From: Candidatus Poseidoniales archaeon
GTDB taxonomy: Archaea > Thermoplasmatota > Poseidoniia > Poseidoniales > Thalassarchaeaceae
Length of the DNA stretch: 64,000 bases
Assembly (NCBI GenBank): GCA_012960975.1
Contig: DUAE01000030.1
Location: forward strand, 50,360 to 114,359
Direction: 5' to 3'
The position numbers were made by a program, and so were the translations under genes. The notes beneath the pieces were generated by a model, which made no database searches, had not been told where the DNA came from, and saw only the letters and a list, made by a program, of their open reading frames with translations. Below are positions 8,901 to 50,365 of the stretch, piece by piece; the first letter of the stretch is position 1; the number at the start of each line of letters is the position of its first letter.

Positions 8901-10921
8901 TTGGGTCCGTCGTCTCGATAGCGCGAACCATTCAACATATGCATGTCATTGTCATCATCGAAATCACAATTATCATCTATATCGAGCCAATCTAGAATCC
9001 CATCGTTATCATCATCGACATCATCCCAATTATTGATTCCGTCACCATCCCAGTCATTATAACCAGTATACGACTTTCTCAATAAGTAACAATTGTCATG
9101 AGGGTTCTGTGGATTTGGATTAGTAAGACTCGGGCAATCCCAGCCATCTACTGTGTCCTGGTGAACATTTGGGAAGATATCAAGTTCGTTGATTATCCCA
9201 TCATTATCCAAATCCCAAGGTTCGTCGGTTGGATCAAGGGCAGGTGCACCGACTGGATTGTCAGGGAAGGGGGTTCCTCCCATATCTGGGTCAAGCCAAT
9301 CCCATACCAAATCGTAATCTTGGTCGATAACTCGATAGCGGTCATCATCTAAATCACGGTCGTAATCGAGTTCACAATCGATTCCCGGGATCTCGATTGG
9401 GCCGGACACAGGTAAATCACCAACACCATCTCCATTGGTATCGACTTGATGGCAACGATCAGGAATTCCATCATTATCATCATCGACATCATACATATCG
9501 GCCAAACCGTCGTTATCATCATCGGTATCCGAAGAATCTGGTGAGCCGTCATTATCATCGTCTGGATCGATGAAATTTGGAATTCCATCACCGTCTAAAT
9601 CACCGTCGACAATATAGCTAAATGATTGCTCGCGGGGATGCCAAGCCATTTCTCTCTCAACGAAATCAACGCCTCCGACATATTGAGAGTAAGTATTCAA
9701 ATTAGCTGTTGAATTTACATTAATTGTCCCAGTCATTGTTGGATGAATTGTACAATCATAAGCGAAAGATCCTGCCGTGGCAAAGGTCATTGAAAATGTC
9801 CCACTAGGTGCAATATTACCACTGTCGAATAATCCTCCAATGCTTTCAGTAACTGTATGATCAGTGGTATCAGCATTCGTCCAGACGATTGTGTCACCTA
9901 CATTGATATTGATATTTCTTGGAGAAAAACCAGCACTAGTTATCGAAACTTGATGCACTTGAGCAGAATGCCAATCTACTGCTGCTGACCAATTTGCTGC
10001 GGTTTCTGTGATATTTCCAGAACGAGTCGAATCCCAAGGGTGTTCATCCCATAGATCTACTACTCCGTCACCATCATCATCCAAATCAAAGTAATCAGCA
10101 TCCCCATCACCATCGAAATCACATGGCCAAGTGAATTGATCGATTCGACCATCGTTATCATCATCTTCATCATAAGAACCTCGACCTGAACCATCAATAT
10201 CTTCATCCGGGATTCCATCATTGTCGTGATCGTAGGGATTCTGGTCAATTCTGTAACCATTTCCAATTACTAAACCAGTCCAAGGGTGAACGGTATTCGA
10301 TTGAACATAACGATCGGAACTGACATTTTGAGGATCCGCGCCTTGTGAATAATCGATTGGCCCTTCTAGAATTCCATCGTTATCATCATCCCAATCGAAT
10401 TCATCTTGAATTCCATCATTATCGTGATCGTAAGGATCTGTCCCATAACAGCCATCGAAACGCTCGATTAAATCAGCGATACCATCGTTATCATCATCTA
10501 AATCATACAAATCTGAGATGCCATCGTTATCGTGATCTTTGGTATCCGTCTCTTCAAGGAAAAATCCATAACTCGGATCCAACGCAAGGGCGGCACGGTC
10601 ACTTATCTTCCCATAAACTGCCATCGGATCATTATAAAATGGATCGGTAAAGGTTGGATTAGTAAAGCTATTTTGAGCAGCAGGCTGACTTACTCCATCT
10701 CCAGCAACGGGACCAGATGCTGTGTTAATTTGTTGATATGATGTACGCTTTTCGGCAGGTTCCCACTCAACACCATTTACCTCTTCATATGAATCAAAAT
10801 CTTGGAATGAATACATTTGTGTGCTAAACAACATCAAAAATACCATCAAGACTGCTGTAATTCCTTTTTTGGTATTTGCAATACCGAATCCATTACTCAT
10901 TTTACCTAACATCGTGACCAC
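2969..10921 (-). CDS. Giant secreted/membrane-anchored protein: signal peptide, TSP3/EF-hand-like Asp-rich repeats, embedded cupredoxin domain, Ig-like region, C-terminal TM helix and DUF4129-like cytosolic tail
   Basis: N-terminal ITAVLMVFLMLFSTQMYS signal; many DHDNDG/DDDNDG repeats; C-terminal VLTVIGIALAFAVLIGAIMYRNYNERRR TM; tail NCYKDLVRFFRSRGAMKKVYETTREFEDAINAMLG...LDTLFSIFEEARYSDHEIGADQRDRAIAAL resembling DUF4129. Confidence 0.85.
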   Translation of the reverse strand: MVTMLGKMSNGFGIANTKKGITAVLMVFLMLFSTQMYSFQDFDSYEEVNGVEWEPAEKRTSYQQINTASGPVAGDGVSQPAAQNSFTNPTFTDPFYNDPMAVYGKISDRAALALDPSYGFFLEETDTKDHDNDGISDLYDLDDDNDGIADLIERFDGCYGTDPYDHDNDGIQDEFDWDDDNDGILEGPIDYSQGADPQNVSSDRYVQSNTVHPWTGLVIGNGYRIDQNPYDHDNDGIPDEDIDGSGRGSYDEDDDNDGRIDQFTWPCDFDGDGDADYFDLDDDGDGVVDLWDEHPWDSTRSGNITETAANWSAAVDWHSAQVHQVSITSAGFSPRNININVGDTIVWTNADTTDHTVTESIGGLFDSGNIAPSGTFSMTFATAGSFAYDCTIHPTMTGTINVNSTANLNTYSQYVGGVDFVEREMAWHPREQSFSYIVDGDLDGDGIPNFIDPDDDNDGSPDSSDTDDDNDGLADMYDVDDDNDGIPDRCHQVDTNGDGVGDLPVSGPIEIPGIDCELDYDRDLDDDRYRVIDQDYDLVWDWLDPDMGGTPFPDNPVGAPALDPTDEPWDLDNDGIINELDIFPNVHQDTVDGWDCPSLTNPNPQNPHDNCYLLRKSYTGYNDWDGDGINNWDDVDDDNDGILDWLDIDDNCDFDDDNDMHMLNGSRYRDDGPNNLDTDIDGDGLQNDEDWDDDNDGISDYYDPDDGNCGIQDFDTTDIFDYTYPTDDGDLLDGSNDGQIYAHDIAHNFYWNQSWMFNPFTSEDGFILNYNGYDSAISPDDSGKIPELYWHVIQRWSSFNGGNFFDIDTDGDSLINGIDIDQDGDGLPDWWDQDEGNDGKLDVNDIKFGGTFDDNECGSSLFLAFMAGLAEEYVCGLFYAWLYGAPIIRPTSTNQGQLIYTYPYSSRPDSEHDDGAYNGSNSQGQWTCNKNCFWFTFDPGSNPSPSSAVTYNQIANNRDLWIAYVGLNYGFFQWNADSNANWFPDEKADLLNNDIDPDDDCGAPVLGNMNPQCMFNDTADLDDDFDNVYDHWDVDDDNDGIWDYFEVDTNDDHDDDANTEPDGNFFIGSNCEDNDDDGTDTDPDGDGWFQAVWDVGILGQGLLHPKYYDVDNDNDGVPDGEDPDDDNNGILDVDQELLCFVGEEQLVWDHDNDGILNWADDDWDGDGRVNTLELATATPLISPWDHDNDGLRDDIDLDDDSDGMEDADEVMLWPSRFNNQSTNPWDHDDFGGGEGIANPTDPKTGPDAIDEDDDSDNRTDADWDQFEEEDGNTSDWDSDNDGILDEDDKIPTRITLTVPDVMWLDYRYAVKFNGTVNWLDPEQGVFMPAPNLPVQIHIDWARNGTTALETIDVLTDENGNYVVGQFLFPEDLSVGSNLTYNVYAEVTEMFIHDGAATEPVPTEVRANTTIDYVAWTYFRSDEQPLFIDYKVHYTADWERGKFDNRLSHAPISFTVHGGPFGNATHPTVFDGYGYGYRSDSGGWISLSFVQSSGSQGIWKQVQWNSTIDNGVGKVPGAYEEIVWDNTSKSHSVIGIYEYTNTSLPIGDYLFIGMSRPDLGAEWPWPYLEGDETDSFAIRSMHRMYIEADVITPSVRPVYFWDSTQFTGSSFGAWRALFHAPSLANAGLDFGTESLGKPFAMLWDGTPEGLTGESGRLRPFLSSNGTHWFIAMQNGGDFNVPPCGPIDPRDPESDARCEIVPEMFTGEAFRIIGTVWNRTMTAWPHDPMALQVDVDHNGVFAGSQETGFARAPDMVNGQAVFDYNWTWYSQYAAGVFGIRADFTNSNFYFTGNQSNVLAPTGAYVNISVIGTTDFQMNMIPRLYRGQNTTIEARLIDNAYQPVRDAPVNFTWSADGTSDIAITDHNGVLQVNLTIDEMHQLGNFTLSYTFPGDTYRQGSAHEINLWVVSRTFVSLQSTTENRLSSGDYWEFSAQVTDDNRTAAIKDKGEFLDGCDENGGEILVILEGVDFEQRIHRQIVETLCPNAGTINYRMLLDPQLLRDDPYSFLPDGFGPVNVILRFAENLPHEGCEPLDEEMLRISGAWDPCDQILNSDHYRKIFRHDERGFSLIGRTTLSVDDQIVYTSEIDPLTGQAIDKPMVVTGQLIDELGSNLSNRAIQVQYEMVGSDLGVKSCQGDVTDINGMFDVICPLNDVQAGQAKVTVNFLSYETGDQYRYKNASITKFFPVFSNSTMTFQEVGPFRTDVDTYQFQNGTVFPVLYLKESFHIDAMLTQVNGNPVGGKCLNIYLDPETNTRPIATAITRDGTGEIEWYSGDPDDNPSRRGVEPNGNQLEGFRTIRVAYEPTKELPGGCRAETTPLVNGSFQDIEVLVRSKVDILLKNHWSNPLGYQVGDEVAGAVAILRDRLDVSVEGETVIFTFQYWNGTGWETNNVEYAVTNEHGEANFSFIYTGEEVPGELDINAVNGKWRVLIHFQESSFFQEEFLNSTPVIYLGEPLVEQNANFFTFKVLTVIGIALAFAVLIGAIMYRNYNERRRIEIIRGILTDSLMSLKASNDYIQTIFNCYKDLVRFFRSRGAMKKVYETTREFEDAINAMLGGIMPPEDLDTLFSIFEEARYSDHEIGADQRDRAIAALQALINHLSNALGESMLNRTSSNESTLYGSRVKAGEFIDSEGNTRIAGIDEENENDGFSL
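7050..10545 (-). repeat. Degenerate tandem coding repeat (calcium-binding TSP3/EF-hand-like DxDxDG units)
   Basis: Repeated WD/YDHDNDGIxD and D.DDDNDGIxD; I count at least five exact DHDNDG and nine exact DDDNDG. The DNA appears as recurrent atcatcattgtc / ccatcgttatcatcatc on the plus strand. Confidence 0.85.
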
Positions 10922-11054: not shown

Positions 11055-11438
11055 TTGATGACAGCTTACCGAACCGTCCTCAACTCGAAAATTCACCGAG
11101 TTTCTGTTACCCTGGCTGATCTCGATTGTGTCGGCTCAATTTCAATCGATGAGGGTCTTTGGGACGCTGCTGGAATTGCTGAATGGGAACAGGTCAGCGT
11201 CCTAGATATTACGAATGGTTCAAGGATAGAAACATACGCAATTCTAGCGCCTCGCGGCTCTGGTGAAATCTGTATTAACGGAGCTGCGGCACACCATATA
11301 AATCTAGGTGATTTAGTCATTATTTGCACATACAAATCAATCAAAGAAACTACGATTTCTTCACATTCACCAACGATTATTCATGTCGATAAATCAAATG
11401 AAATTATTGAAATTTCGGATGCCGAATCAATATACTGA
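11055..11438 (+). CDS. panD: Aspartate 1-decarboxylase, pyruvoyl-dependent (bacterial-type PanD)
   Basis: SKIHRVSVTLADLDCVGSISID (Gly-Ser self-processing site), NGSRIETYAI, APRGSGEICINGAAAHHINLGDLVII; close to the bacterial PanD pattern. Confidence 0.92.
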   Translation: MMTAYRTVLNSKIHRVSVTLADLDCVGSISIDEGLWDAAGIAEWEQVSVLDITNGSRIETYAILAPRGSGEICINGAAAHHINLGDLVIICTYKSIKETTISSHSPTIIHVDKSNEIIEISDAESIY

Positions 11439-11912
11439 TTAGACTCGATGGTAAGGCAAACCTTTGATGATTGTAACGGCTCGATAAAGTTGCTCTAAAA
11501 GCACGACTGCTGCCAATTCATGAGGGAGAGTAATCGGTCCTAATGAAAGTGATTTAGCTCCAGTTTGCTGCTCACCAAACCCACCAGGGGGCCCGATTAC
11601 GAGGTGTACATCTTGGCTTGCTAATCGCCACTTTTTCATCTCTTCAGCATAACCCATGCTATCAATAATTTCTCCATCTTCATCGAGCAGGATTACCGTT
11701 GAATCACCAGCTCGCTTTATCACGGTTTTCAAATATTCATTAGGGTCGGTTTGATTTCGGTGTTCGACCAATGAAACACCATCCGAAGAAAGGCGATTTG
11801 CATACTCATTTATTGCGATGCGAAATGCAGCATCTTTTGGCCTTCCATGAAGATGAACTACAATGCGAGCCATATGCGTGGCAGAACCCGCTAGTCTTTG
11901 ATGAATTCGCAA
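11439..11912 (-). CDS. rlmH: RlmH-like SPOUT methyltransferase (23S rRNA pseudouridine-N3-methyltransferase family); likely start MARIVVHLHGRPK
   Basis: STVILLDEDGEIIDSMGYAEEMKKW...DVHLVIGPPGGFGEQ...LSLGPITLPHELAAVVLLEQLYRAVTIIKGLPYHRV; GGxxG SAM knot and terminal YHR. Confidence 0.85.
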   Translation of the reverse strand: MRIHQRLAGSATHMARIVVHLHGRPKDAAFRIAINEYANRLSSDGVSLVEHRNQTDPNEYLKTVIKRAGDSTVILLDEDGEIIDSMGYAEEMKKWRLASQDVHLVIGPPGGFGEQQTGAKSLSLGPITLPHELAAVVLLEQLYRAVTIIKGLPYHRV

Positions 11913-11950
11913 GCATCAAAACTGTGAACACGCTGGCTAAACTGAGTAAG

Positions 11951-12268
11951 ATGGGTTGGTGGCCGTTCAAAAAAAAATCTAAACCAATTCATGATGATCC
12001 TCATGTCAAAGGTACTAGGCTTTGGATTCAAGAATTGCGAGATGTTTGCGAACGAAATTATGACAATTTTACAGAGGGGCAGCGAGTAGTTCGACAGATG
12101 CAAATAGAATGGATTGACGCGAATCGAGAAGGGGTTGTAGACAATTTGTTGCTAGAAGGGCTAGATCGACGTGCATTTCGGCTACTAAGAGCCGATAGCA
12201 AAGAATGGTTGGTATGGCTCGACAACGAAGATTTTTGGAAGCCCGGCTGGCGCGGTGACATCGAATAA
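11951..12268 (+). CDS. Small uncharacterised protein (ORF-track ORF 11771..12268; downstream ATG preferred to avoid antisense overlap with rlmH)
   Basis: Open frame MGWWPFKKKSKPIHDDPHVKGTRLWIQELRDVCERNYDNF...; ends 8 bp before the next plus-strand gene. Confidence 0.55.
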   Translation: MGWWPFKKKSKPIHDDPHVKGTRLWIQELRDVCERNYDNFTEGQRVVRQMQIEWIDANREGVVDNLLLEGLDRRAFRLLRADSKEWLVWLDNEDFWKPGWRGDIE

Positions 12269-12276
12269 GAGGTGTT

Positions 12277-12972
12277 TTGATGATTTTTTGGATTTCTTTA
12301 TTTCTCATTTTGGGTGCCACTGTGTTCCATTATTCTCGCGCCCAACCTTTTCCAGAAAAAAGTGGAAAATTTGCCTTTTTATTAATTACTACTGGATTAA
12401 TAATGATTATTTCCATTAGTGCCCCTCGACCTACTGAAGATTTGGTTGCTCCGGTGGTTGCCACAATTATCGGTGGGCTCGCCGTCATCATAGGTACAAT
12501 CCATATGTCGATTCTACGAGATGACGTGATTATCGCACCATTTGGAGGATTTCTTCTTTGTATTGGTGCAATCGATTTGCTCTCATCTCAATGGGTTGGA
12601 GCCGGACAAATCGAACAAATCGGCTCATTCGCTTTCGCCTCAATTCTAGTATTATTAGAGATTTACTTAGCATTCAAAGGATTGGTTGTCGGAATTCAGG
12701 GCATCTCTTGGTCAAAATCTGGGTTGAGGCAAATCCACAGGGGAATTTTGTTAGGAGATTCAGGTGCCATCACTCATTTTGAAAAATCATGGGATATGGA
12801 AAATCAATGGATAAACGCGATGAGTCATTCCGCATTATCGTTAATTTATCGTCATCTAAATGATGAAAATATGGAGAAAAAACACACCATTGAGTTAGAA
12901 CAATTGGGTGGTTGGCAAAGTGTTGATGAATCTTGGATAATTACTATCGAAAATGCATTAGAACTTCTTTGA
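12277..12972 (+). CDS. Uncharacterised multi-pass membrane protein with C-terminal soluble region
   Basis: Several hydrophobic segments (FWISLFLILGATVF, FAFLLITTGLIMIISIS, VVATIIGGLAVIIGTI, SFAFASILVLLEIYLAF). Confidence 0.6.
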   Translation: MMIFWISLFLILGATVFHYSRAQPFPEKSGKFAFLLITTGLIMIISISAPRPTEDLVAPVVATIIGGLAVIIGTIHMSILRDDVIIAPFGGFLLCIGAIDLLSSQWVGAGQIEQIGSFAFASILVLLEIYLAFKGLVVGIQGISWSKSGLRQIHRGILLGDSGAITHFEKSWDMENQWINAMSHSALSLIYRHLNDENMEKKHTIELEQLGGWQSVDESWIITIENALELL

Positions 12973-13036
12973 GTGTAGGTCTCGAACATTTTTTTGTAGT
13001 CGAGACGATTTCATAGAGTGCAACCCAATCCGACAA

Positions 13037-13678
13037 GTGGATATGGTTCGCATCACAAGGATTCACACCGGTGGCGGAGATGGAGGTGAAACTTCTCTCC
13101 TCGATGGAGAAAGGGTTGGAAAGAATCATCCCCGTGTTGCATTTTATGGCACAATCGATGAAGTAAATTCACAGATTGGAGCCGTCAGAATGGAACTAAA
13201 TCGAATCGAAAAAATAGTACCAGATGGTGGTCAAAAAACAAATCTAATTCGTGCAGCAGAATTGGCAGACAAACGCTTAGGTATTATTCAACAAGAATTA
13301 TTTGACATTGGGGGGGAATGTTCTTGCACACCTGGAAAATTACCGAAAATGATGGAAGTAATATCTGAGCAGCAATGCGAAAGATTAGTCGAGGAGATGA
13401 ACGAATGGATCGAAGATCTCGAGCCACTCGAATCTTTCATAATTCCCACAGGATCTCCTCCCGTCGCTACCCTGCACGTAGCTCGGTGTGTCACGCGTCG
13501 AGCAGAAAGGGACGCTTGTGGACTTCGCTCAATTGAAGGTGAAGATGCCATTAGAGCAGAAGTAATATCATACTTGAATAGGTTATCTGATTGGCTCTTC
13601 GTTCTCGGAAGATGGATTACATTAAAAACCGGTGAACAAGAAGTTTTGTGGATGCCTCTCGGTAAAAGAAATGCTTAG
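13037..13678 (+). CDS. ATP:cob(I)alamin adenosyltransferase, PduO type
   Basis: RIHTGGGDGGETSLLDGERVGKNHPRVAFYGTIDEVNSQIGAVR...FIIPTGSPPVATLHVARCVTRRAERDACGL...YLNRLSDWLFVLGRW; strong PduO/MMAB signature. Confidence 0.93.
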   Translation: MDMVRITRIHTGGGDGGETSLLDGERVGKNHPRVAFYGTIDEVNSQIGAVRMELNRIEKIVPDGGQKTNLIRAAELADKRLGIIQQELFDIGGECSCTPGKLPKMMEVISEQQCERLVEEMNEWIEDLEPLESFIIPTGSPPVATLHVARCVTRRAERDACGLRSIEGEDAIRAEVISYLNRLSDWLFVLGRWITLKTGEQEVLWMPLGKRNA

Positions 13679-14097
13679 ACGGGGCGACCAACAGAAAGAA
13701 GATGGGTGTGTGCTGAATTTATCATCTCTTTTTCTTGTTCAAAAGTCAATTGAGAGTGAGCAGATTCGAAGTCAAGCCACAGATAATTTCGATGTTCATG
13801 CGATAGTTTAACAGTCAATTCATCAGTTTCAGCAAGGTACCAATATACTTGTTTTGGAGTTTTTACACCCTTTCTGAAAAATGTATATTCTGTCCTCATC
13901 TCCCAGCCATCTAATATTTTGACCGATTTGATTCCCGTTTCTTCAGAAAGTTCCCTCACCGCGGTTGAATGATAGTCTGAATCAGTGTCCTCGATGTGAC
14001 CTTTTGGAAAGCTCCAATGGCCTTGGGGATATTGCAATAATAGGACACTATCATAATTGATTAGAATGAAACCACATGATGTCTCCATGCAACACAC
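13675..14097 (-). CDS. NUDIX hydrolase (Ap4A-hydrolase-like)
   Basis: WSFPKGHIEDTDSDYHSTAVRELSEETGIKS contains the Nudix helix REXXEETG; one residue longer than the canonical Gx5Ex7REUXEEXGU box. Confidence 0.88.
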   Translation of the reverse strand: MCCMETSCGFILINYDSVLLLQYPQGHWSFPKGHIEDTDSDYHSTAVRELSEETGIKSVKILDGWEMRTEYTFFRKGVKTPKQVYWYLAETDELTVKLSHEHRNYLWLDFESAHSQLTFEQEKEMINSAHTHLLSVGRPV

Positions 14098-14173
14098 GGT
14101 GAGGACTTTGCCTATTCAATTGTTGCAACCGAGTGGCAAATACAATTGAGTAGAGTCCGCCTGTCAAGAAAAG

Positions 14174-15154
14174 ATGGAAGAGGCCGCACTCGCTCTAAAT
14201 ATCAGAAGAATCGTTACCGATAGTGATCTCGACGGAGTTGTCACAGGCGCAATTCTGCGTCGTTGGTGGCCAGAAGCCGAGGTAGTATTTGGCCACCCTG
14301 GAAACCTTCGGGCAGGCATGATGGATCATTTAATCGACCGACATACGGCGATTTGCGATTTACCTAGACACGAAGACTGTGGACTCAGTATCGATCATCA
14401 TCAATCCAACGAGCCGAATGCATCAGAGGATAGCGAAACAGTAATTCTCTGGAGGTCAACACCATCAGCAGCAAGAATTGCCTATGATTTACTATCTGAA
14501 AAAATCGATTTATCCGATTTGACTCAGATGATGATATGGGTCGATAAATTGGATGGTGGGGGTGTGACAAAAGAAGAATTCATGGGCAATCACCCCGTAG
14601 TTTGGCTCGGGAGAATTATCGGTTCTGATGCTGGAATAGCACTCCATATTCTTGAATCACTTCAAGCGGGCTCTTCTGTTGTTTCGATATTAAACGACCC
14701 AATTATCGAGAATATAGTGAAAGAAAGAAAAGCGCGTCAAAGTATTCTCGGCGAGTCAATTATTTCGAATATGAAAATTGTAGATCGCCTTGCAATAGTA
14801 CGATTTGAAGATAGCGGATTTCGATCGAATGGCTATCACATCACAGCCCTTGCTGGTGAAAATTGCGATGCTTGTCTGGTAATACACGGGGATGTTGGGG
14901 TGGGATTTGATGAAGAAGACAAGTATCCTGTCTCTGCTTCATTCTACACAAATTCATTCCTACACAAAAACGGCGGAATTTTTGATTTGACAAAACTTGC
15001 CACACGTTTTGACTCTGATGGGGGTGGTCACGCAAATGCATGTGGTTGTAGAATAAAACCATTAGAAAATGGTGTGGTCGTAGAGAGGATGGTTAACTCA
15101 AAAGATATTGAGAAAAACCTCGAAACATGGCTATCATTGTGGTCAAATCGTTAA
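14174..15154 (+). CDS. DHH/DHHA1-family phosphoesterase
   Basis: TDSDLDGVVTGAIL, CDLPRHEDCGLSIDHHQSNEP (DHH), C-terminal GGGHANACGCRI (DHHA1). Confidence 0.88.
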   Translation: MEEAALALNIRRIVTDSDLDGVVTGAILRRWWPEAEVVFGHPGNLRAGMMDHLIDRHTAICDLPRHEDCGLSIDHHQSNEPNASEDSETVILWRSTPSAARIAYDLLSEKIDLSDLTQMMIWVDKLDGGGVTKEEFMGNHPVVWLGRIIGSDAGIALHILESLQAGSSVVSILNDPIIENIVKERKARQSILGESIISNMKIVDRLAIVRFEDSGFRSNGYHITALAGENCDACLVIHGDVGVGFDEEDKYPVSASFYTNSFLHKNGGIFDLTKLATRFDSDGGGHANACGCRIKPLENGVVVERMVNSKDIEKNLETWLSLWSNR

Positions 15155-15621
15155 AGATATTTGAAAAGATAAAGGAAACCAAGAAAGGCATGAATCAATA
15201 TCAATAACGCCATTATATCGCTAATCCTTCCGTGCAAATCTTTGATCTGAGAAAACGATTGGCCACTATCTCTTTTCGATTTTACTGACCTACCTAATTT
15301 TCTGAGGTAGAGAATCATTGCCAAACCGAGTAAACCAACCCACCCATGGAAATGGCCAGGGAGTATATTGGTTGACGAAAATGAGCCATTAATAATCGTA
15401 AAATAAATCGCTTTCGAAACAAAGGCAAGAAGGATTACTCCCATTACACCGTAGGTTAATTTTTCTCCAACTTCTTCGTGGTTTTTCAAGGCGATTTTTC
15501 TGTTATCTGATTTTAGGAGCGATCCTTTTTGCCTCCATTTCCTCTGATTGAAGAAAACCCAAATCAATCCAAGTGCTGAAATTGGATGGAGGAGAATGAT
15601 GATTGTAGCTAGCGCTTCCAT
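15151..15621 (-). CDS. Multi-pass membrane protein, possibly DUF4079-like
   Basis: Hydrophobic segments with LHPISALGLIWVFF, HFHGWVGLLGLAMILYLRK, LHGRISDIMALLILIHAFLGFLYLF; family name is from memory. Confidence 0.55.
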   Translation of the reverse strand: MEALATIIILLHPISALGLIWVFFNQRKWRQKGSLLKSDNRKIALKNHEEVGEKLTYGVMGVILLAFVSKAIYFTIINGSFSSTNILPGHFHGWVGLLGLAMILYLRKLGRSVKSKRDSGQSFSQIKDLHGRISDIMALLILIHAFLGFLYLFKYL

Positions 15622-15733
15622 GATTTTTGCTACATGATAGTCAAACTTGAGGTCTTGCTTTCACCTCCTTGCTTAGCAAAGCGGATAATTCATAACAAAA
15701 TTAACGGGCGAAGAGTCGTCGGAGTGGCTTAAT

Positions 15734-18700
15734 TTGGAGCAGTATCTACTCGATTGTCTCGAAGACCTGCATAAAGCAGGTGATGATGAAGTACGTCGAA
15801 AGAATGCAATTCAGAGATCGGCAACATGGGATTTACTCGATAAGAGTTGGAAACCTTTGGCAATTATGGCGGCCTCAAAAGAAGCTCCAATCGTGAAAAA
15901 AGATTCGCAAGATCAATCTGGTCGACCGAGGGGTGCAAACCGAAGCCACCGGAGTCGAGGGGGACGCCGTGGGGGGCGAAATTCAAGACGGGGGTTCGAG
16001 GATAATCTTCCCTCACCTGATAGAATTTTAGGGGATGATCATTCAGCAGGATTCAAACTTGCAGTTTTAATTGCCCAGAAGCATAAAATGACTACAAATT
16101 GGGATGATTCTTGGGATGGGAATTTAGATTTGGTAAGAATTGAATGCGCTCAAGGGTTACATCCAGTCTGGAGTCGATTGGCACGTGAGGCCCCTCTCTT
16201 TGCTGAGATGGAGAGGTTTCCCGTAAATGAAATTGAAGCTGAAATCTATGATTCGAGTGAATGGATTGCCGCTGCTCATATTGACCCCGAAGACTCTATA
16301 CAATTGAGAGAATGGCTTTCTCTCCCCCCCCCATTCAGATTGAATTCCGGCCAGGCGCTTGCACTGGATAAAATAAAGAAGGATCTTGCTGGAAAACCAC
16401 GGCCACAATCTTGGCCTAAAACAATGAAAGAATATTTGCGTGGACTTGAGGGAATTTCTGCAATCTTGGAAAGTTTAATTCTATTGGGTTCAAAACATCT
16501 CGATGCAATCGATTCATTAGGCCGGGTTGGTAATAATGATTCATTACAATCATTAGCTGAAAAACATGCGAGACTTTCGTCTCATCGAAATGGAAATTTC
16601 GATGAATGGTCGACATCAATCCAACAAACTGGTGATGATAATCTATCAAAGGCAATTAGGGTTGAAGTCTGGAAGAATTACAATTCTTCCTATTCAAATT
16701 TAACAAAAGAAGAGCTGCTCACGGGGATAAAAATCTTGTCTGAAGAATCAATTCCCCACGCACTCAACTGGCGTATCGCGGAACTTTCGTCAGAATCTGG
16801 GGGGATGAAAGAGGCACTTGCCATTATCCAAAAATTGTCTATCGAGAATGATTCGCACCTAAGTATTGCTCTCAAAATTTCTACCGCCACCAAATCTCCG
16901 ATTTTAGAAGAAAAAATTCTTTCAGCAATTTCAAACATCTCTGAAAAAAGAGTTGCTGAAATAATGCAAACTGATAATTTGCCAATTTCAATTCAATTGG
17001 CAGCAGCAGCGGTCCTAACAAATATCAATGATGTAAGGTATACTAATGAAATTCTTTCAGTATTTACTAGAGCCGCTGACGTAACTTCTCTAGCAGAAAA
17101 AATGATTGCAGATGATTCACTAGCACTCGCCTATCCATTCAGAGCATTGATGGTATGTCAGCTGATATCTGCTGTAGATGCATTGAATATATCTTCGAAT
17201 CTGAAAAATCTCAAATCTCGCGCATTATTAGCTTTGGAAGAATCAACAGAAGATGATACTCTCTCTGAAGTATCACTTTCTCTAATCTCTCTTCTCGCCG
17301 GAGTACCATCAAACATGGATTCAATTCACCAAAAACTCGATATTGATGGAGTTGTAATCCTAAATCAAGTACGAAGGGCCCTCTCTTCAGATGGAGATGG
17401 ATTCGTTAAAGAATCTCTAATTGAATCATTAGAAACATCGATTCGAGCAGCAGATGTTTCCCATCTTGAGGCGAGATTGTTTTCTGCTTTGATTGATGCT
17501 TTATATCTCAATTTAGCAACCTTAGGATTACAAATGGGTGAAGTTGACAAGAAAGAAAGTTCAATAGAAATATTTGAAAAATTATCGAATAGTAATGAAT
17601 TGACTAATAGAACGATTCGTTCACTCGATGACCTCGTTGTCGAGCACAGCATAGGAATTGTGTCTCTAGAAAAGTGGTACAGAATCAACGACAAAGATTC
17701 TGCCGAATATCATGTTGTAAGGGCTGCGGTTGAAAGGGAAAGGGGGAATCGTGCAAACGCCGCTCGTTCTTACAAAGAAGCTTCAATAAAAATTGTAGAA
17801 GATTATGAAAACTCATCAATTTTATTGAGAAAATCCTTGATTGAATTCGCCCACGCTGGAGTATGGGATGAAGCCGTTGAAATGATTGAAGATAACCCCC
17901 AATTAATGGCTGCAGTTACACAAAAATTCCAGCTTTACCTGCATACCTGTGCAGATGTTTCAGCAGGATATACAGACAAAGCAACTCGCCGCTTAATCGA
18001 GTTTGTATCAAAAGAAGAATGGGCGGATCCTGAATTTGAAGGAGTCGACGCAGAATTCAATAAACGGCGAAAAGAATCGTTAGAATTACTTCAACGATAC
18101 CCTGATGAACATAATTTACCAAAGGAAATGTTCAATGGAAGAATTCGTGCAGCTTTCAAGACCTTAGAAAAAAGTGGCGCTTCTCGTCAATCTGATTTAG
18201 AGCGAAGATTCCATTTCGAATTGCATGATAAAAAAGATATCTTCGAACTGACTTTGCTCGGTGGGCAAATCGCTGAGAAAAAACCACTAAGAGGAATTCG
18301 AAGATTCGAAGAAGCGATTGAAACTGGATTTTTTGATGATTTAGGTGTTCGACGTTTAAGAGATACACAGCGTGCTGTTTTCGTAAGTCACAGCAATAGT
18401 ATTCCAGTAAAAGATCGCAGGACTTTACACCATTTAGGCCTCAAACCACTCATTTTAATCGATACGAATGTGTTAATTGATGCTTTGAAAGATGATTTGC
18501 TTAGAGAAATTTCAAGTGACCAATACGGATCTCTAGATTGGACTATCGAAAGGTCGTTTCATATGATGTTAATTCGAAGAAGTAAGGGTGATGTTTTTGT
18601 TACCATTCCTCCATCGGCAAGAGGAGAATTCAAACATCGAACGAAAAGTCCGGACTCAGTTCTAGATTTATTTGAAGGAGTTTACATCAACCACCAAGAA

Positions 18701-41795: not shown

Positions 41796-42901
41796 GTGAT
41801 TATACTAAAAGAAAGTCAAAGGAAGAAGTGATACTATCTCTGAAAGGTATTGCACTCGAAATGCATAATAAAATGGAACGGGGAAATCCCCCTACAATGA
41901 CTTTACCAGTTCGTTCTAAGACAAATATTGCTTTTGATAAAAAATTAGAAGTTTACAAATATGGCAAAAAGAAAACTGTGCGAGATGCGACGAGTCTCGG
42001 CTCGGCGCGACAATTGCTCCGATCGTTATATGTGACTGAATTTATTGAACAAATGATTGAAGCAGGAAAATCTTCAACATTAAGAGAAATGTATTACATC
42101 AGTGAAAGTTGGGGGCATGGTAAATTTGGAACCCAAAATGATAGTAATAATCTCGCTGAAGATCTAGAAATCGTTACGAAATGCTTACGGGAAGATTTCA
42201 AACTCCGTCCTGAAGAAGATGGGGCGAGAATAATTGGAAATGTTACATTTGAGGAAAGAAATCGGAAAGGAAATTGGATGCGAATCAATTGCCGTGACGA
42301 TGTTGGAGATTCAGGCTATGGCGTACCATATAATGTTGAATCAGAGAAATTAAAATTAATTACAGAAGACGTTGATTTCATTATGGCTATCGAAACCGGT
42401 GGAATGTTCGATCGATTGGTGGAAAACGGTTTCGATGAAGATGCAAGATGCGCATTGATTCACCTAAAGGGCCAACCGGCTCGTTCTACACGAAGAATCA
42501 TGAGAAGAATGAGTGATGAATGGAAAAAACCCATAATCGTCTTCAGCGACTGCGACCCTTGGTCTTTCAGAATTTTTGCAAGTATTGCCTATGGTGCAAT
42601 AAAAACAGCCCATATTTCTGAATATCTAGCTACAAAAGGTGCACATTATCTCGGCATCACAGCAGACGATATCCTCGCATATGATTTGCCTAGTGATGAT
42701 TTGACCAAGCAGGATTTGAATGCACTTGATGCCGAATTAACCGATCCTCGCTTCAATTCTGGTTGGTGGAAAGAACAGATTAATCTCATGAAGGAAATGG
42801 GCAAAAAGGCCGAACAGCAATCCTTAGCAAAATATGGTTTGGATTTCGTCACCGACACATATCTTCCTGAAAAATTATCTGCTATTGGTTTAGATTATTG
42901 A
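41792..42901 (+). CDS. top6A: DNA topoisomerase VI subunit A (Spo11-like)
   Basis: REMYYISESWG (catalytic Tyr), AIETGGMFDRL, IIVFSDCDPWSFRIFASIAYGAIKTAH (Toprim DxD), GITADDILAYDLPSDDLT; 4-bp overlap with top6B. Confidence 0.96.
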   Translation: MSDYTKRKSKEEVILSLKGIALEMHNKMERGNPPTMTLPVRSKTNIAFDKKLEVYKYGKKKTVRDATSLGSARQLLRSLYVTEFIEQMIEAGKSSTLREMYYISESWGHGKFGTQNDSNNLAEDLEIVTKCLREDFKLRPEEDGARIIGNVTFEERNRKGNWMRINCRDDVGDSGYGVPYNVESEKLKLITEDVDFIMAIETGGMFDRLVENGFDEDARCALIHLKGQPARSTRRIMRRMSDEWKKPIIVFSDCDPWSFRIFASIAYGAIKTAHISEYLATKGAHYLGITADDILAYDLPSDDLTKQDLNALDAELTDPRFNSGWWKEQINLMKEMGKKAEQQSLAKYGLDFVTDTYLPEKLSAIGLDY

Positions 42902-43710
42902 ATGCTAAATCTGAAAGCCATCAGCCATCAGCCTCGGCTATGGCGAATAAGACCCGGGCATGGGCAAAATGGCTTTCAGGCATTTCATTAGCCCTTTTGG
43001 TTCTTGGATTAATCTCTTATTCGAATGCTTCCGACGTGATGCTTGGCGAAATGGATCCATCCATCAATCATTTGTTGGAATTAAAACCAGGCGAAAATGC
43101 CATCGTCAATTTCGAAGGGGGTGGCCTCTATACCGCCCTTCGAATAAGTGAAAATGGGATCACCGTGGATGCTGATTTACGGCTTGTGTTTTCAGATGGT
43201 GAATTAGTTGATGGGCGCGCTTCAAAGGCAATTGAGTTCGCAAGACCTGGGGGGGATGGAGAAACCACATATGTTCCGGTCCGACTTTTCGAAAAAGAAA
43301 AAGGCGGTGAATATCGTCTTTACAATGATGGAAATGATACTCTTTGGCTCGTCGATGATTTACAATCTCAATTGAACATGATGTCTTCTCCCTGGGTATT
43401 ACTATTCATGACTGGGTGTTGTTTTGGTCTACCGATTGGACTAGTGGCGGTGATTCTTCTTGGAATTAATTTTCGAAAGAAAAAAAATGACCAACAAGTG
43501 TCTGGTATCAAAATAGAAAATAAAGTATTGAGCACCGACGAAATTTATCGACAATACCATTCAAATCGCAATGAAAAAGAAAACGAGGTCAGCCAAACGG
43601 TCCCAAGTCCGTTCCTTACTTCCTCAGAAAACATTGTCAATACAAACAAAGTTGAATCCTCAAACATCGAAAAAGAAACTAAAGATTGGCACGATTGGGA
43701 TGAAGGTTGA
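42898..43710 (+). CDS. Uncharacterised membrane protein with two TM helices
   Basis: AKWLSGISLALLVLGLISYSNAS and SSPWVLLFMTGCCFGLPIGLVAVILLGINF; TTG start overlapping the top6A stop. Confidence 0.6.
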   Translation: MNAKSESHQPSASAMANKTRAWAKWLSGISLALLVLGLISYSNASDVMLGEMDPSINHLLELKPGENAIVNFEGGGLYTALRISENGITVDADLRLVFSDGELVDGRASKAIEFARPGGDGETTYVPVRLFEKEKGGEYRLYNDGNDTLWLVDDLQSQLNMMSSPWVLLFMTGCCFGLPIGLVAVILLGINFRKKKNDQQVSGIKIENKVLSTDEIYRQYHSNRNEKENEVSQTVPSPFLTSSENIVNTNKVESSNIEKETKDWHDWDEG

Positions 43711-43794: not shown

Positions 43795-44535
43795 GTGATG
43801 GTCGAGTTTGATGAGGCGATGAACATTCTCGAAAATAAGGCACGACGACAAATTTTACGTCATTTGGTTAAGGAACCTCACTATCCTTTACAACTTTCAG
43901 AATTGCTAGAAATAAGTCAGCAAGCCGTAATGAAACATCTGAAAGTTCTCGAAAATGCAGAATTTGTCGAATCGGAACGAGTGCCTTCGGAAAGAGGTGG
44001 GCCTCCAAAGAAAATGTATCGAGTTAATCAATCGTTTTCGGTCCGGCTCGATCTTGGGCCAAATCTATTCCGTGCCGAACATCGAACGATGCCCGGTGGG
44101 GGCCCGATGAAATTGTCAAATAAATTACCCAGCGAACTTGACGAGGTAATTAATCGGCTTGGAACTCGCAGAAAGTTGCCGATGGCTGAAGCCATAGATA
44201 TTCTTGCTGAGTTAGATCGAGCGCTTGAAAAAATCGATGAAAGCAGAGATGCGGTGATTGCTTTACACCAACAAATTATGCATAAGGTCACTCCGAGTGT
44301 TAGTGAGCATTCAGAATCTTATGAAGAGAGAATTATGGCCCGAGAAATCATGAATCAACCAAGGCGGCCACTCGATTTGGATTTGTTTTCACATAGTTTA
44401 CGCATTCAATCAACTGATGCCGAATCGATGATGGAGAGCTTACGCGACCAATTGATGCGAGATTTTGCAGCAAATAGTGGCAACTTTGTTGCTGCTCGCG
44501 ATGGCACCCCTCTACCATGGTGGCTAATACGCTAA
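43795..44535 (+). CDS. ArsR-like winged-helix transcriptional regulator
   Basis: EAMNILENKARRQILRHLVKEPHYPLQLSELLEISQQAVMKHLKVLENAEFVESERVPSERGGPPKKMYRVN. Confidence 0.85.
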   Translation: MMVEFDEAMNILENKARRQILRHLVKEPHYPLQLSELLEISQQAVMKHLKVLENAEFVESERVPSERGGPPKKMYRVNQSFSVRLDLGPNLFRAEHRTMPGGGPMKLSNKLPSELDEVINRLGTRRKLPMAEAIDILAELDRALEKIDESRDAVIALHQQIMHKVTPSVSEHSESYEERIMAREIMNQPRRPLDLDLFSHSLRIQSTDAESMMESLRDQLMRDFAANSGNFVAARDGTPLPWWLIR

Positions 44536-44536
44536 A

Positions 44537-47500
44537 TCAGAAGACTATGTCGTCATCATCTTGGAGATTTGCGAGCATACTACTCTTCTCTGCAAATTGG
44601 GTCAAAGCATCCATTCTCCGCCCATACATTACAACACCCGCTACTCCAATCAGTGCAAATGTCGCTCCGAGAATAATTACTGGAACCGAATATCTTGCAA
44701 TGATTTCTACACCGACATCGAGAAGTCCCCAACTCGAACCCATCTTTTGATCGACTTTTACAAAATTGTTACTCTCATCGGTCTCGACGATTACGTTATC
44801 CGGATCGACAACGACAACGATGTCGTGACTTCCAGCTTCTACCATATACAGCAGTGTAATTTGTGGCGGTTCCTCATTAGGATCGGACGGCATTATCGCT
44901 TGGATTAACTGACGGTAGGCGATATTGTCTTCGTCGCATCCTCGTTTCTTGATTTCCTTTATCGTCTGATCAACACACAAAACGATATTTACAGAAGTTG
45001 CATGTGCATTTCCTAAATTCTGAATTTGAACATTCACAGACAGCATGTCACCAATTGAGCCGGTGTATATGCGGACATCCACATCCACAATCGTCAAATC
45101 TGGCGCTCGTAATCGTAATTCAATGACCTGTTCATTTGTATCACAATTAGGAGCGAAATTATCCGGCCGACCATCATGATTCATATCGATAGTACATGAG
45201 TCGTCCCAAACTGGCGTTTCATCGAAGTCACCTCCTACTACAGAAGAACCAAAACTGGATAGAACCTTGATTCCTACCTCTCGATTAGCTAATGCTGCGA
45301 GAGGATCGATGGACACAATTGCGACTACCTGCAACGTAGTATATGCGGGCATTGTGGGCATAGTTACCGCCCCGGTTCGTGCATCAACATAACACGTGCC
45401 GTCCGCCGGTGTGTCGCTAATTGTTAGCATAGCACACTTCTTCTCAGAAGGATACTCAGTGTCAAATCCTTCTATCAAAGCGTATTCAATCACCCAACTG
45501 GAAAGTGTGTTCATACCCGGAACTATGTCCCATCCTGCACCATCCATCGTGTGGTTGTGGAGGGTTGGTTGATCGGGCACATTTCCGAAGTTTGTCACAT
45601 TCATCGTGAACCGAACGACACGCCCGGGAGCAGTTGTTTTGATTCTGCTCTCAACAGTTGGATCGATGGTGATTCGCATATCATGGAATTCGATAATTTC
45701 AATTTGTAAAGTGATGACATCTCGCACTTTTGTCCCTTCAAATGACTCTTCACTAAACACTTGCAAAGTAACTGTGTACATGCCTGCCAAAGTTTCCTCT
45801 GGTATGTTAATTATGAGTGAAATCATTTGAGATTCATCGCGCTCGAGTTCCTCGAATAAAATTCGTGGTATTTCAATGTCCCAAACATCTGAATTACCGT
45901 CTTGGTCAACGATTGATCCGATGGCCATCTCATATCTATCAGCGCCATTTCCAGTATTTTCAATTGTTATCTCCAATGGATATGATTCTCCAGGATGCAG
46001 AGATAATATCGTCTCTGAGGTTGCTTCTAATTCATATCGTTGAATTATATTAGTGACTAAAACCACTGAGTCTCTAACCTTATGGGCACCCTCTAAGTGT
46101 GCCTTAATAGTTACAGAATCTCCTAAACCGGCACTTGCATTATACGGCGCACACATTATCGCAGTTACTGTGTAAGGAGCATCGATAATCGACCAATATC
46201 TTGGACTGTCATCAGGAATGCTATTCCCGCCAGGAGCATTTGCAAAGTCTATATCGACTGTCCAGTGATTAAATCTCCAAGTCTGTTCACTTATCTCTGA
46301 AGGGCGTTCATCCGGACCCCCAGGAGTTGTGAATACAAGGTGACCGGGGGTGAAATGTTTAGTCACCTCAATATCGAATTCAGCACAATCTCCAGGGAGA
46401 ACGTGCTGAGTCGTATCGCCAAGATTGAAGACGATATTGCCGGAACTCTTTATCGAAACATTGACCCATAATTCTAGCACATCAAATGTGCCTCTATCAA
46501 TTGAGAGAACTGGCTCACCCGTTGACCATCCCTTGAGGTAAATTACGAAAGTACCTGGCTCTTGAGAGGTGGGTACGCTAACCTGTAAATTACGAGTAAC
46601 GGATTGCCCCGGATCTAAAGAGAGGGAAATCGGAAAATTAATGCCCCAACCAAATGGCAATGCCCACTCTGTTTGACCTTCGAGCGTTGCAGGATTATAG
46701 AATGCGAACGTATCGTATACATTTCCAGTATTAGTAACCGTGATTGAGAATATTGCCGATTGGCCTTGTTCAACATCAGCTTGGAAGTGGGAGGTGTCTA
46801 ACTCAATTCCGTGAACCACGTCCATCAATGTTAGAGTTAATCGCTCGTCACGAATTGCAGGATCTTTGTGAGACAAAGCAGAAACTGTAATTGTCGCAAG
46901 TTCATCTTCATGTGATTGGTAAATTGTTGGAGCACGAATTTGTAAATACATTGGGACTACATCGCCACCGCGAAGGAACACTGGTGTAGAATCAAATATT
47001 GGAGTATTGTTCGAAGAAAAGAACAATGTCGCACTCCAATTCATCGGTACACCATCCATCGTTACGGTGAAAGTATCCGACACAAGTTCGGCTGGGCCGG
47101 GAGTGGGGTTTGAAATTGTCATATTGTAGGTTGTTTGCTCCCCTGGTTCAATGGTGTGATAATAAGTTTCATCCCCAGCCAATGATACCTCGACTAAACC
47201 CGTCAACACATGAACGTAACAAAGGGTGTAAGATCCTCCGTTGTGTTGATCGTTACACTTGTTTGTATCCGACCAAGCGATATGAGCTCCGCTACCAAGA
47301 TCATTTGCGAAACCAGGGGCTTGACCGAGTTCTGGCACCGCGCCCGAATTTGGGCCTAACTTATCTGATTGCCATTCGGTAATTGGTAAAAGTTCCCACG
47401 TATCAAAAACAGAAGATGCAATCGAATTAAGAGGGAACCCATTTGGATAATCATCATTTGTATGATTCAAACGAGTGTACATAATTGTCTCACCCTGTGA

Positions 47501-49645
47501 ACCATTGTAATTATCCAACCAAGTTAAGTGAACATTATCAAATGAATCAGTAAGTATTGCGGGCATATGTGAATTAGCACCAAATGGTCGATCGGTTGGA
47601 ATTCCATCATATCCTTCTACTTGGGAAATAGCTCCATCTGCAATTTGCTTGATGCCGTATGCTGGTAATCCGCCGGGTGCTCCGTCCCAGGCGCCCGCAC
47701 CCCTCATTCGAAGTCTGGTGTAATAAATTTCGTAGTTAACATCAATGTCAAATCCATATGCACGTCCATCCATCCAAGTGAGGTGAGTATTGCCTGAAGT
47801 ATCGAGTGCGATAGCTGGATGAAGGCTATATGCATCATTCAATGTGATTCTGGTATCATTCACTACAACTAAATGTCCATAGCCAAGACCGTCCATAGAT
47901 GGACCTAAATCTTGAATATATTTATCAGCGGTGGTGTCAACAAAAGTTCCAGAATCTCCTTTTGACCAACCAGGCCATGGAGCTTCGAGTAAAGAAAGTG
48001 GGTCGAGAATTGTCATGAAGATTTCACGAGAATTATTTGTCGATAAATAGACGAGAGCTTCGACCATCAACTGCATCTCTGCAGAATTGGAAGCAGAAGT
48101 TGGGAATGTGTACATCATGCCTTCAGCATTCGTCAATCTAAGGGTTGTACCAGGACAAGTTCGAGTTGATAAACTGTTGAAACCGTTCGGGCACTGAGCC
48201 AAGTCCATCATGTGTGAACCAACATCGGTTGAGCCCGAACCAAATCCTGCTGCGTGAAGAGGGATTGGGATAATTCCGGCATCTACACAGGCGTCATGTG
48301 CTTCATTAATCGATTGAATATCATCAGATTGTTGTGCTGGGCTTCCACCATATGGCCCTTCGTCGGAGATTGGAATTACTATTTTCGTAGCGTTTGGGTT
48401 CCAATGGTGATCTAATTGTGTTGGAGGATTACCGGGGACATTTCCGTTGATATCTTCCCAAGATAAACAAGCCCAAGTCGACGCCGGACCCCAGAATTCA
48501 CTGTAATATCCGCCATCTGTCGGCAAATTGATTGCTCCGTTATTGTAAACAACGTCATTCAACTCTCTGATTCCGCCAGAGTCATCATTGGGTGCTAATC
48601 CTAGTGCCGTTGTGCGAGGGCCTTGGTTTCCACTTCCACCTGTTGCATACGCTGTTGCACAATTTCCACTCGTTGCTGCTGAAGGCCAATTCCCACTAAG
48701 GGCGTATAGTGTTTCGTAAACGGTCATATTCGCCCGCTCCAATAGAGGTTTTAATCCCTGGAAAGTGCCGCCACTCGCAAAGTTTCCACCATAGAATACC
48801 ACACACATGTCAGCCCATTCTGCATTCATAGAACCAGAAGTGTCGATTGGTACGACCATCTCGACTTTTCCTCCACGTGTATCGTCCCAAACGATTTGAA
48901 CAAAGTCATCAGCATCAATAGCGAGATCGGGATGGCCTTTGTGACCAATGATTGGAGTCAATAGGGTTTCATCGACTGCAATAATTGCTTCACGTGCTGA
49001 AATATCGGCTTCCAACATTGCGTAGTAAATTTGTGGTTGTTGGTAATACTTATCCAGAGGTTCAAAAGAGTCTTCCCAAACGATGTGTGCGTTATTATTC
49101 GAATCGACATCGACGGCTGGCCAATCTCGATTTTGAGAATGTCGTGAAACTATTGTGTCGTCGATGACTGAAATTACAGCATCTAATGCGACACTGCCAT
49201 CACGATCATCTTGGAATGGATCTATGACTGTATATTTGATTGCCCACTGGCCGGCCTTGTCGGTCCAGACTATATGGGCGCGGCCATTATCGTCGACCCG
49301 AATATCCGGGTGCCAAGCCCGATGAGAACCGGCATTCGAAATCTGCGTTGCTTCGATTAGAGTGTCACCACGAGCATTGGTTAATTTGTAGAAAAGATGC
49401 TGGGTATTACGGCTCCAAACGAAGTGAGTATTGCCTTGTTCGTCGGCATCTACTGCAATCATACGATCATTTGCAGAACCACCATTGACGATTTGTACCG
49501 CGTCGGTAAGAACTATTTCGCTCGCATTTACAATAGGTACTCCCATCGCAGCAAATGTGCTCAATACCATTAACAAAACCATCAGCACGCTCTTCCTAGT
49601 TTTTCCAGTTTCCATAATACAACCTCCAGCACAATGCTGTAACAT
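44537..49645 (-). CDS. Large secreted/membrane-anchored protein: signal peptide, beta-propeller-like repeats interrupted by a vWA domain, NEW3-like Ig domains, CARDB domain, C-terminal TM
   Basis: RKSVLMVLLMVLSTFAAMGVPIVNAS signal; PIDTSGSM MIDAS; repeated D..GN.H..W.D units; CARDB-like APDLTIVDVDVRIYTGSIGDMLSVNVQIQNLGNAHATSVNIVLCVD...VDPDNVIVETDESNN; C-terminal YSVPVIILGATFALIGVAGVVMYGRR. Confidence 0.88.
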   Translation of the reverse strand: MLQHCAGGCIMETGKTRKSVLMVLLMVLSTFAAMGVPIVNASEIVLTDAVQIVNGGSANDRMIAVDADEQGNTHFVWSRNTQHLFYKLTNARGDTLIEATQISNAGSHRAWHPDIRVDDNGRAHIVWTDKAGQWAIKYTVIDPFQDDRDGSVALDAVISVIDDTIVSRHSQNRDWPAVDVDSNNNAHIVWEDSFEPLDKYYQQPQIYYAMLEADISAREAIIAVDETLLTPIIGHKGHPDLAIDADDFVQIVWDDTRGGKVEMVVPIDTSGSMNAEWADMCVVFYGGNFASGGTFQGLKPLLERANMTVYETLYALSGNWPSAATSGNCATAYATGGSGNQGPRTTALGLAPNDDSGGIRELNDVVYNNGAINLPTDGGYYSEFWGPASTWACLSWEDINGNVPGNPPTQLDHHWNPNATKIVIPISDEGPYGGSPAQQSDDIQSINEAHDACVDAGIIPIPLHAAGFGSGSTDVGSHMMDLAQCPNGFNSLSTRTCPGTTLRLTNAEGMMYTFPTSASNSAEMQLMVEALVYLSTNNSREIFMTILDPLSLLEAPWPGWSKGDSGTFVDTTADKYIQDLGPSMDGLGYGHLVVVNDTRITLNDAYSLHPAIALDTSGNTHLTWMDGRAYGFDIDVNYEIYYTRLRMRGAGAWDGAPGGLPAYGIKQIADGAISQVEGYDGIPTDRPFGANSHMPAILTDSFDNVHLTWLDNYNGSQGETIMYTRLNHTNDDYPNGFPLNSIASSVFDTWELLPITEWQSDKLGPNSGAVPELGQAPGFANDLGSGAHIAWSDTNKCNDQHNGGSYTLCYVHVLTGLVEVSLAGDETYYHTIEPGEQTTYNMTISNPTPGPAELVSDTFTVTMDGVPMNWSATLFFSSNNTPIFDSTPVFLRGGDVVPMYLQIRAPTIYQSHEDELATITVSALSHKDPAIRDERLTLTLMDVVHGIELDTSHFQADVEQGQSAIFSITVTNTGNVYDTFAFYNPATLEGQTEWALPFGWGINFPISLSLDPGQSVTRNLQVSVPTSQEPGTFVIYLKGWSTGEPVLSIDRGTFDVLELWVNVSIKSSGNIVFNLGDTTQHVLPGDCAEFDIEVTKHFTPGHLVFTTPGGPDERPSEISEQTWRFNHWTVDIDFANAPGGNSIPDDSPRYWSIIDAPYTVTAIMCAPYNASAGLGDSVTIKAHLEGAHKVRDSVVLVTNIIQRYELEATSETILSLHPGESYPLEITIENTGNGADRYEMAIGSIVDQDGNSDVWDIEIPRILFEELERDESQMISLIINIPEETLAGMYTVTLQVFSEESFEGTKVRDVITLQIEIIEFHDMRITIDPTVESRIKTTAPGRVVRFTMNVTNFGNVPDQPTLHNHTMDGAGWDIVPGMNTLSSWVIEYALIEGFDTEYPSEKKCAMLTISDTPADGTCYVDARTGAVTMPTMPAYTTLQVVAIVSIDPLAALANREVGIKVLSSFGSSVVGGDFDETPVWDDSCTIDMNHDGRPDNFAPNCDTNEQVIELRLRAPDLTIVDVDVRIYTGSIGDMLSVNVQIQNLGNAHATSVNIVLCVDQTIKEIKKRGCDEDNIAYRQLIQAIMPSDPNEEPPQITLLYMVEAGSHDIVVVVDPDNVIVETDESNNFVKVDQKMGSSWGLLDVGVEIIARYSVPVIILGATFALIGVAGVVMYGRRMDALTQFAEKSSMLANLQDDDDIVF

Positions 49646-49729: not shown

Positions 49730-50365
49730 TTATGCCCATTCATCAGGGTCAAAATCACGACCAAAACCACCGGTCTCATCCATATCCACTGAAGATTTGG
49801 GGTTGCCACTTACGCCAACTTTTGATGAAGATTTACGGGCTTTTTTTGCAATCCAATCATCGACAGGTCCTGGTTTTCCAGTTCCTGGCCCATAGCCGAA
49901 TTTTATTTTATGTATTAAAGCTAATTTGGATAACCAAACATGGCGCATCGTATGCATAAATTCGTTTTGAGTGAGTCCATCGAACCAAATCGGCCTAGAG
50001 AGGTTGAAGGCTTGAAGTGGGCCGAGAAGTTCTTCTTGTTTTTTCCCAACATGTAAGACCCAATCTAAATTGGCTTGAGTCAAGTGCAATCTCATCTCAT
50101 GAAGCCAAGTTTCCCAACCACCTGAATCCTCTTCATTATGAGATATCATTTCAGATTGTTGGCCTTCATCAACCCTAGTTATAGAATATACCAAAACCAA
50201 GTTTCGGTTCTTTGGAATAACGACATTGAAAACATGTCCTTGTTTTGTCGGAGGGTATCTAACATGTAAATGCATGATGTTTTGATGATCTTTAACCTCG
50301 CGTATTTCGAGGCGTTCACTTTGCAGCCAGTCTTTGACTGCATCAACTGCCTCACGGGCGTCCAT
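49730..50365 (-). CDS. Uncharacterised archaeal protein (possibly DUF2299-like)
   Basis: AVKDWLQSERLEIREVKDHQNIMHLHVRYPPTKQGHVFNVVIPKNRNLVLVYSI; family assignment from memory only. Confidence 0.5.
   Translation of the reverse strand: MDAREAVDAVKDWLQSERLEIREVKDHQNIMHLHVRYPPTKQGHVFNVVIPKNRNLVLVYSITRVDEGQQSEMISHNEEDSGGWETWLHEMRLHLTQANLDWVLHVGKKQEELLGPLQAFNLSRPIWFDGLTQNEFMHTMRHVWLSKLALIHKIKFGYGPGTGKPGPVDDWIAKKARKSSSKVGVSGNPKSSVDMDETGGFGRDFDPDEWA

Follow-up and report, generated by a model that had tools for sequence, protein, structure and literature searches.

The window, a stretch of 64,000 nucleotides from a Poseidoniales archaeon (Marine Group II, MGII; family Thalassarchaeaceae, MGIIb), encodes on its minus strand a 1,702–amino acid (aa) surface protein (44537–49645) whose head is predicted to be a seven-bladed β-propeller interrupted by a vWA domain with MIDAS residues, the insertion point lying in the B-C loop of blade 4. 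The protein is probably exported and anchored by a single membrane pass, with the vWA-in-propeller head carried on an Ig-like stalk and working as an adhesin or receptor. This would be an integrin-like design, separately evolved, present in nearly every sampled Poseidoniales genome, where standard databases miss both the vWA and the propeller.

Poseidoniales are reported by Rinke et al. to be the most abundant archaea of ocean surface waters and to have no cultured representatives (PMC6461757). Their adhesion has been inferred mainly from flagellar, thrombospondin, and flotillin genes, and the vWA-propeller protein does not figure in the passages of that study on adhesion (PMC6461757). The locus described here is a conserved, specific candidate binding head for Poseidoniales that is invisible to Pfam.

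Stalk, anchor, and propeller

The boundaries and strand of the open reading frame, 44537–49645 (−), were verified exactly; all features of the protein given below lie on this strand. Since ortholog matches start near residue 10, M11 (position 49615) is the likely real start. It opens a putative signal peptide region, residues 11 to 42 (49520–49615), with a hydrophobic segment near residues 18 to 40. Behind the head, Pfam and NCBIfam place a stalk of Ig-like domains of the NEW3/NPCBM_assoc and CARDB types at residues 826 to 1650 (44696–47170), with a NEW3-type match and a CARDB domain at residues 1514 to 1628 (44762–45106; Pfam E value of 5.9e-15). A C-terminal transmembrane (TM) helix was assigned to the hydropathy maximum at about residues 1653 to 1674 (44624–44689) and is followed by a short cytoplasmic tail (44540–44623) with an AE[KQ]SSL motif common to orthologs of both Poseidoniales families. 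This layout bears out an earlier reading made from sequence alone (the sequence-only reading), in which Ig-like/NEW3 and CARDB domains form a stalk leading to a C-terminal TM helix; CARDB is one part of the stalk, and the anchor is the TM helix. The idea of an unusually conserved cytoplasmic tail was dropped, as conservation between the families is 36% for the TM helix and tail versus 53 to 61% for the head.

When the protein was searched against Pfam and NCBIfam, the stalk families alone were over or near threshold; vWA and propeller families were below the cut-off or absent. The protein sequence, used alone as a query against the PDB, gave no match, and no relatives were found in the viral contigs searched.

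The propeller spans residues 44 to 825 (47171–49516), interrupted by the vWA, as delimited by a hidden Markov model (HMM), AlphaFold2 strands, and Foldseek. The blade HMM was trained solely on vWA-less propellers of other Thermoplasmatota (L167 and L168). It gave exactly seven matches in the window protein, with starts at residues 68, 113, 176, 239, 610, 695, and 782 (total E value of 3.4e-15). These matches fall where the sequence-only reading had put its seven repeats, all of which are present letter for letter, as are both vWA motifs that it quoted. Chance cannot account for the sevenfold repeat, which is also independent of the motifs picked in that reading. Start-to-start spacing is about 370 residues for blades 4 and 5 versus about 50 to 85 for other adjacent pairs.

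An AlphaFold2 model of the head (residues 36 to 852, 31 sequences; mean pLDDT of 67.7 and pTM of 0.74) was combined with the HMM and Foldseek results, and together they predict a closed ring of seven blades. Loci found by the genome search did not enter the structure predictions. Whole ~400-aa propellers aligned in Foldseek to the head model over about 800 columns, spanning the insert, among them 4irt (TMt of 0.63), 5mvh (0.62), and 5mum (0.61). An uninterrupted related propeller is found in L164; with the insert excised, its alignment to the window protein scores about 35 SD above shuffles.

The propeller is of the “PDIAV/HIVW” type and not of the FG-GAP/Cage type: FG-GAP gave no match at E ≤ 1 in the window protein, and a Cage-like motif is absent from the propeller. 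The PDIAV motif-containing lipoproteins (NCBIfam NF053835) have the same kind of repeat, P-D-I-A-V-D...G-N-x-H-x-V-W; the match of this family to the window protein is partial (E value of 1.9e-11, residues 21 to 138 only, score of 44 against a cut-off of 90 bits), and the window protein, unlike these lipoproteins, has no visible lipobox cysteine. Going by the repeat name, the repeat may also resemble the “RIVW” repeats. “RIVW” repeat surface proteins have been described in archaea (PMC2447325). Other large proteins of Poseidoniaceae, separate from the vWA-propeller family, do have FG-GAP repeats of the integrin type (G060:C1:559822-560841 and further loci in family f2).

Identity and position of the inserted vWA

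Judged by its sequence, the inserted domain is a vWA with the MIDAS residues DxSxS, S/T, and D in order. Motif 1 is D268-x-S270-x-S272 (48830–48844), a candidate motif 2 is S389/T390 in WGPxSTW (48476–48481), and motif 3 is D428 in IPISDEG (48362–48364). Among 131 distinct homologs, D268 is conserved in 128, S270 in 129, S272 in 126, and D428 in 129, and position 389 is S or T in 115, which agrees with the MIDAS proposed earlier for this protein. When aligned to the integrin αM I domain, D428 falls on the ITDG region. Profile-profile comparison (hhalign) with ten canonical vWAs gave a probability of 92%. A search of the PDB with the vWA profile touched only four chains, three of them integrin αM/αX I domains, at nonsignificant E values of 0.07 to 1.1.

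The nearest relatives found, at 29 to 30% identity, are the compact vWAs (174 to 213 aa) of L161 to L163. These loci encode very long Ig-like surface proteins in another Thermoplasmatota family and, unlike the window protein, lack the PDIAV/HIVW propeller. Their vWAs have a plain vWA element order and the ExWGP...SDE signature in common with the domain studied here, and L162 matches Pfam VWA with an E value of 1.6e-4, just below the cut-off. Pfam VWA was detected neither in the window protein nor in any of 21 Poseidoniales genomes, probably because the Poseidoniales vWA has long inserts specific to its lineage as well as six cysteines (281, 329, 393, 453, 485, and 497), most of them nearly invariant.

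In the head model, the order of vWA elements fits a Rossmann-like α/β fold. The vWA modeled alone (59 sequences) reached a pLDDT of 53.7, and Foldseek returned several Rossmann folds, none significant, so this model was not used as proof. A Rossmann-like domain other than a vWA would be in line with that outcome and with the missing Pfam call, yet the MIDAS order of DxSxS, S/T, and D, the profile-profile match, and the plain vWA relatives make it highly improbable.

Strands A and B of blade 4 were assigned to residues 237 to 255, ending in DLAIDADDFVQIVWDD (48881–48937; blade HMM and AlphaFold2). The nested vWA covers residues 257 to 539 (48029–48877; AlphaFold2, MIDAS conservation, and profile comparisons). 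The propeller restarts with strand C at residues 540 to 547 (REIFMTIL, 48005–48028; strand-C profile and AlphaFold2 strand), and strand D follows at residues 593 to 601 (VVVNDTRIT, 47843–47869; AlphaFold2 and L164 alignment). The order within blade 4 in the AlphaFold2 model is A (236 to 243), B (249 to 255), α/β vWA (260 to 535), C (540 to 547), and D (593 to 599). Local pLDDT is about 88 to 90 over strands A and B, 75 to 93 over strand C, and 27 to 47 across much of residues 465 to 515, a part of the vWA.

Since the model is of only moderate quality, a strand-C profile was run without it. The profile was trained on blades 1, 2, 3, 5, 6, and 7 across orthologs and slid along the head. Residue 541 (EIFMTILDPL) came seventh of 800 positions, directly behind the six training strands, with 13.2 bits versus 4.8 for the next-best site and −7.0 for the vWA start. 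In leave-one-out runs, true strands ranked sixth or seventh, except in blade 7, where strand C has diverged too far. The AlphaFold2 model and the profile agree, and the vWA therefore separates strand B of blade 4 from strand C, with linkers of about four residues on each side; the insertion point can be read from the sequence, and the folded nesting is predicted. The earlier claim of an insertion within a blade is thereby refined to the B-C loop of blade 4, and an integrin-like placement between blades was rejected on the same two results.

Alignment with L164 combined with a scan of excision points supported homology but could not select the strand-C candidate, because an additional ~45 residues separate strand C from strand D; the choice was settled by the strand-C profile. 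The latitude that the direct alignment leaves in the excision point would suit a vWA placed between two blades or next to a repeat domain that is not a propeller, but such an arrangement is most improbable, since the profile and the model concur and Foldseek matches complete propellers across the insert.

Distribution, gene neighborhood, and paralogs

A relative of the window protein was found in 96 of the 98 relatives sampled. The vWA type is present in 82 of 84 sampled Poseidoniales and absent from all six sampled genomes of family f3 of the same class. Elsewhere in the phylum, it occurs in four genomes of one family (f5), outside a PDIAV/HIVW propeller; in the sampled Thermoplasmatota other than Poseidoniales, the vWA and propeller modules were found only apart. 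The survey of relatives for the nested topology, suggested by the sequence-only reading, found it in Poseidoniales. Sampling in depth covered Thermoplasmatota, and the wider search was a pattern scan listing the best 80 of 349 relatives. The closest named record among the matches listed is L051, with 96% over the head.

The gene is flanked by an ArsR-type winged-helix gene (43795–44535, +) and a DUF2299 gene (49730–50365, −). Both Poseidoniales families have the neighborhood TopoVIB-TopoVIA, winged-helix, target gene, DUF2299, acyltransferase, HIT, and FAD, and in both the gene is core and syntenic. The distribution of the vWA and the synteny in both families indicate that the joined head predates the family split and that the gene stayed in place; the vWA and the propeller were probably joined once, before this split.

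Paralogs carry the head on other stalks and with other tails. Conservation in divergent paralogs is highest in the vWA, at 47 to 58% identity versus 28 to 32% for the propeller. A two-genome paralog clade (L171 and L172 in G056 and G029) has D268, S270, S272, and D428 replaced by P, N, Y, and V all together, with the rest of the vWA region kept.

Other paralogs differ in further ways. In L031 (G000:C33, about 11179–16366, −, in the window’s own genome), L042, and L050, the same head sits on an Asp-rich thrombospondin-3–like stalk; a ~250-residue extra stretch inside the vWA region, after the MIDAS part, adds a further nesting level, and the C terminus is UBA-like (LTDIGYSPEVARAILENE). Paralogs L037, L041, L046, L173, and L175 have in common a C-terminal cytoplasmic motif, IGDL(I/L)xxL, behind an acidic region.

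Proposed function and comparison with known heads

A MIDAS-dependent adhesion or receptor head is the most likely function of the protein. Export and membrane anchoring would be provided by the putative signal and the TM helix, both assigned by hydropathy. The vWA would bind its ligand via a divalent metal in sea water, and the propeller would serve as a rigid base for it and possibly as a second binding surface; particles, cells, or polymers may be the partners. The vWA is favored as the business end because the MIDAS residues were lost jointly in the L171/L172 clade and because the vWA outlasts the propeller in divergent paralogs. MIDAS conservation by itself is no proof of adhesion; the “MIDAS adhesion domain” of the sequence-only reading stands as the best account of function, the binding itself being what we infer. 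Microscopy of a coastal MGII population showed mostly free-living cells (PMC6864105), and so adhesion to particles may not be the role of the head.

The head could instead be part of the cell envelope, the vWA joining neighboring envelope proteins via its MIDAS; the protein would then serve structure or assembly and would not be a receptor for ligands from outside. A near-universal core locus with conserved neighbors is what would be expected of an envelope structure, and an Ig stalk with a TM anchor would fit as well. We consider this rather unlikely, since the occurrence of the same head on other stalks and tails in paralogs is more like a recognition module and the vWA stays conserved as the remainder diverges. 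It is less likely still that the propeller is the working part, as a glycan-binding lectin or a polysaccharide lyase or hydrolase acting on algal polymers, with the vWA as a regulatory or docking accessory. The Foldseek neighbors of the head model, which include BT3686-kind glycoside hydrolases, PL25 ulvan lyase, rhamnose-glucuronate lyases, and PLL/PHL lectins, point in this direction, but β-propeller matches are promiscuous (5 to 12% identity here), and among paralogs the vWA diverges more slowly than the propeller.

The adhesin or receptor reading invites comparison with the integrin α-I proteins (αM, αX, and αL), single-pass surface proteins whose stalk likewise ends in a seven-bladed propeller with a MIDAS vWA. 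In propellers, the B-C and D-A loops by convention share a face, and the vWA should therefore exit on the face that corresponds to that of the integrin I domain. In integrins, blades 2 and 3 flank the I domain (PMC3192720, PMC12422189), whereas the vWA of the window protein lies inside blade 4 (B-C); the window protein also differs in having no FG-GAP/Cage repeats, in its short tight linkers at both ends, and in a propeller and a vWA from different families. A search of 21 genomes for Integrin_beta gave no match, but neither did the control. As an independent arrangement, the head does not belong to the integrins. The integrin parallel drawn in the sequence-only reading thus holds for a MIDAS vWA emerging from a seven-bladed propeller as an independent archaeal arrangement, and fails for the site (blade 4, not blades 2/3) and the repeat type (not FG-GAP). 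For a MIDAS domain built into a seven-bladed propeller, the window protein would represent a second origin, separate from that in integrins, with two different insertion sites leading to the same kind of head.

Integrin I domains pass on their signal through the C-terminal vWA helix. Because the linkers measure just about four residues, motion of the corresponding helix might be passed straight to strand C of blade 4 as a pull. An archaeal counterpart of the integrin α-I head, evolved independently as a core adhesion receptor in which the tight double tether in blade 4 mechanically couples metal-dependent ligand binding by the vWA to the propeller, the stalk, and the AE[KQ]SSL tail, is a speculative and doubtful extension.

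Another prokaryotic surface protein, PilY1, combines a vWA with a seven-bladed propeller; to our knowledge, it has no Ig stalk or C-terminal TM helix. PilY1 is a type IV pilus protein involved in adhesion and mechanosensing (PMC11891296). Its N-terminal vWA is separate from and in tandem with the propeller, and the protein is pilus associated, whereas the vWA of the window protein is nested. In the open-access literature, to which the search was confined, we found no paper on the nesting of a vWA within a propeller blade of a prokaryotic protein.

Two further genes of the window encode proteins with hydrophobic or TM segments. A 2,650-aa protein (2969–10921, −) has an N-terminal hydrophobic segment and matches to Big_1 Ig-like, cupredoxin/plastocyanin-like, and DUF4129 families. 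Just after TopoVIA, a TM protein (42898–43710, +) is fast evolving, with a median identity of 34% versus 85% for TopoVIA.
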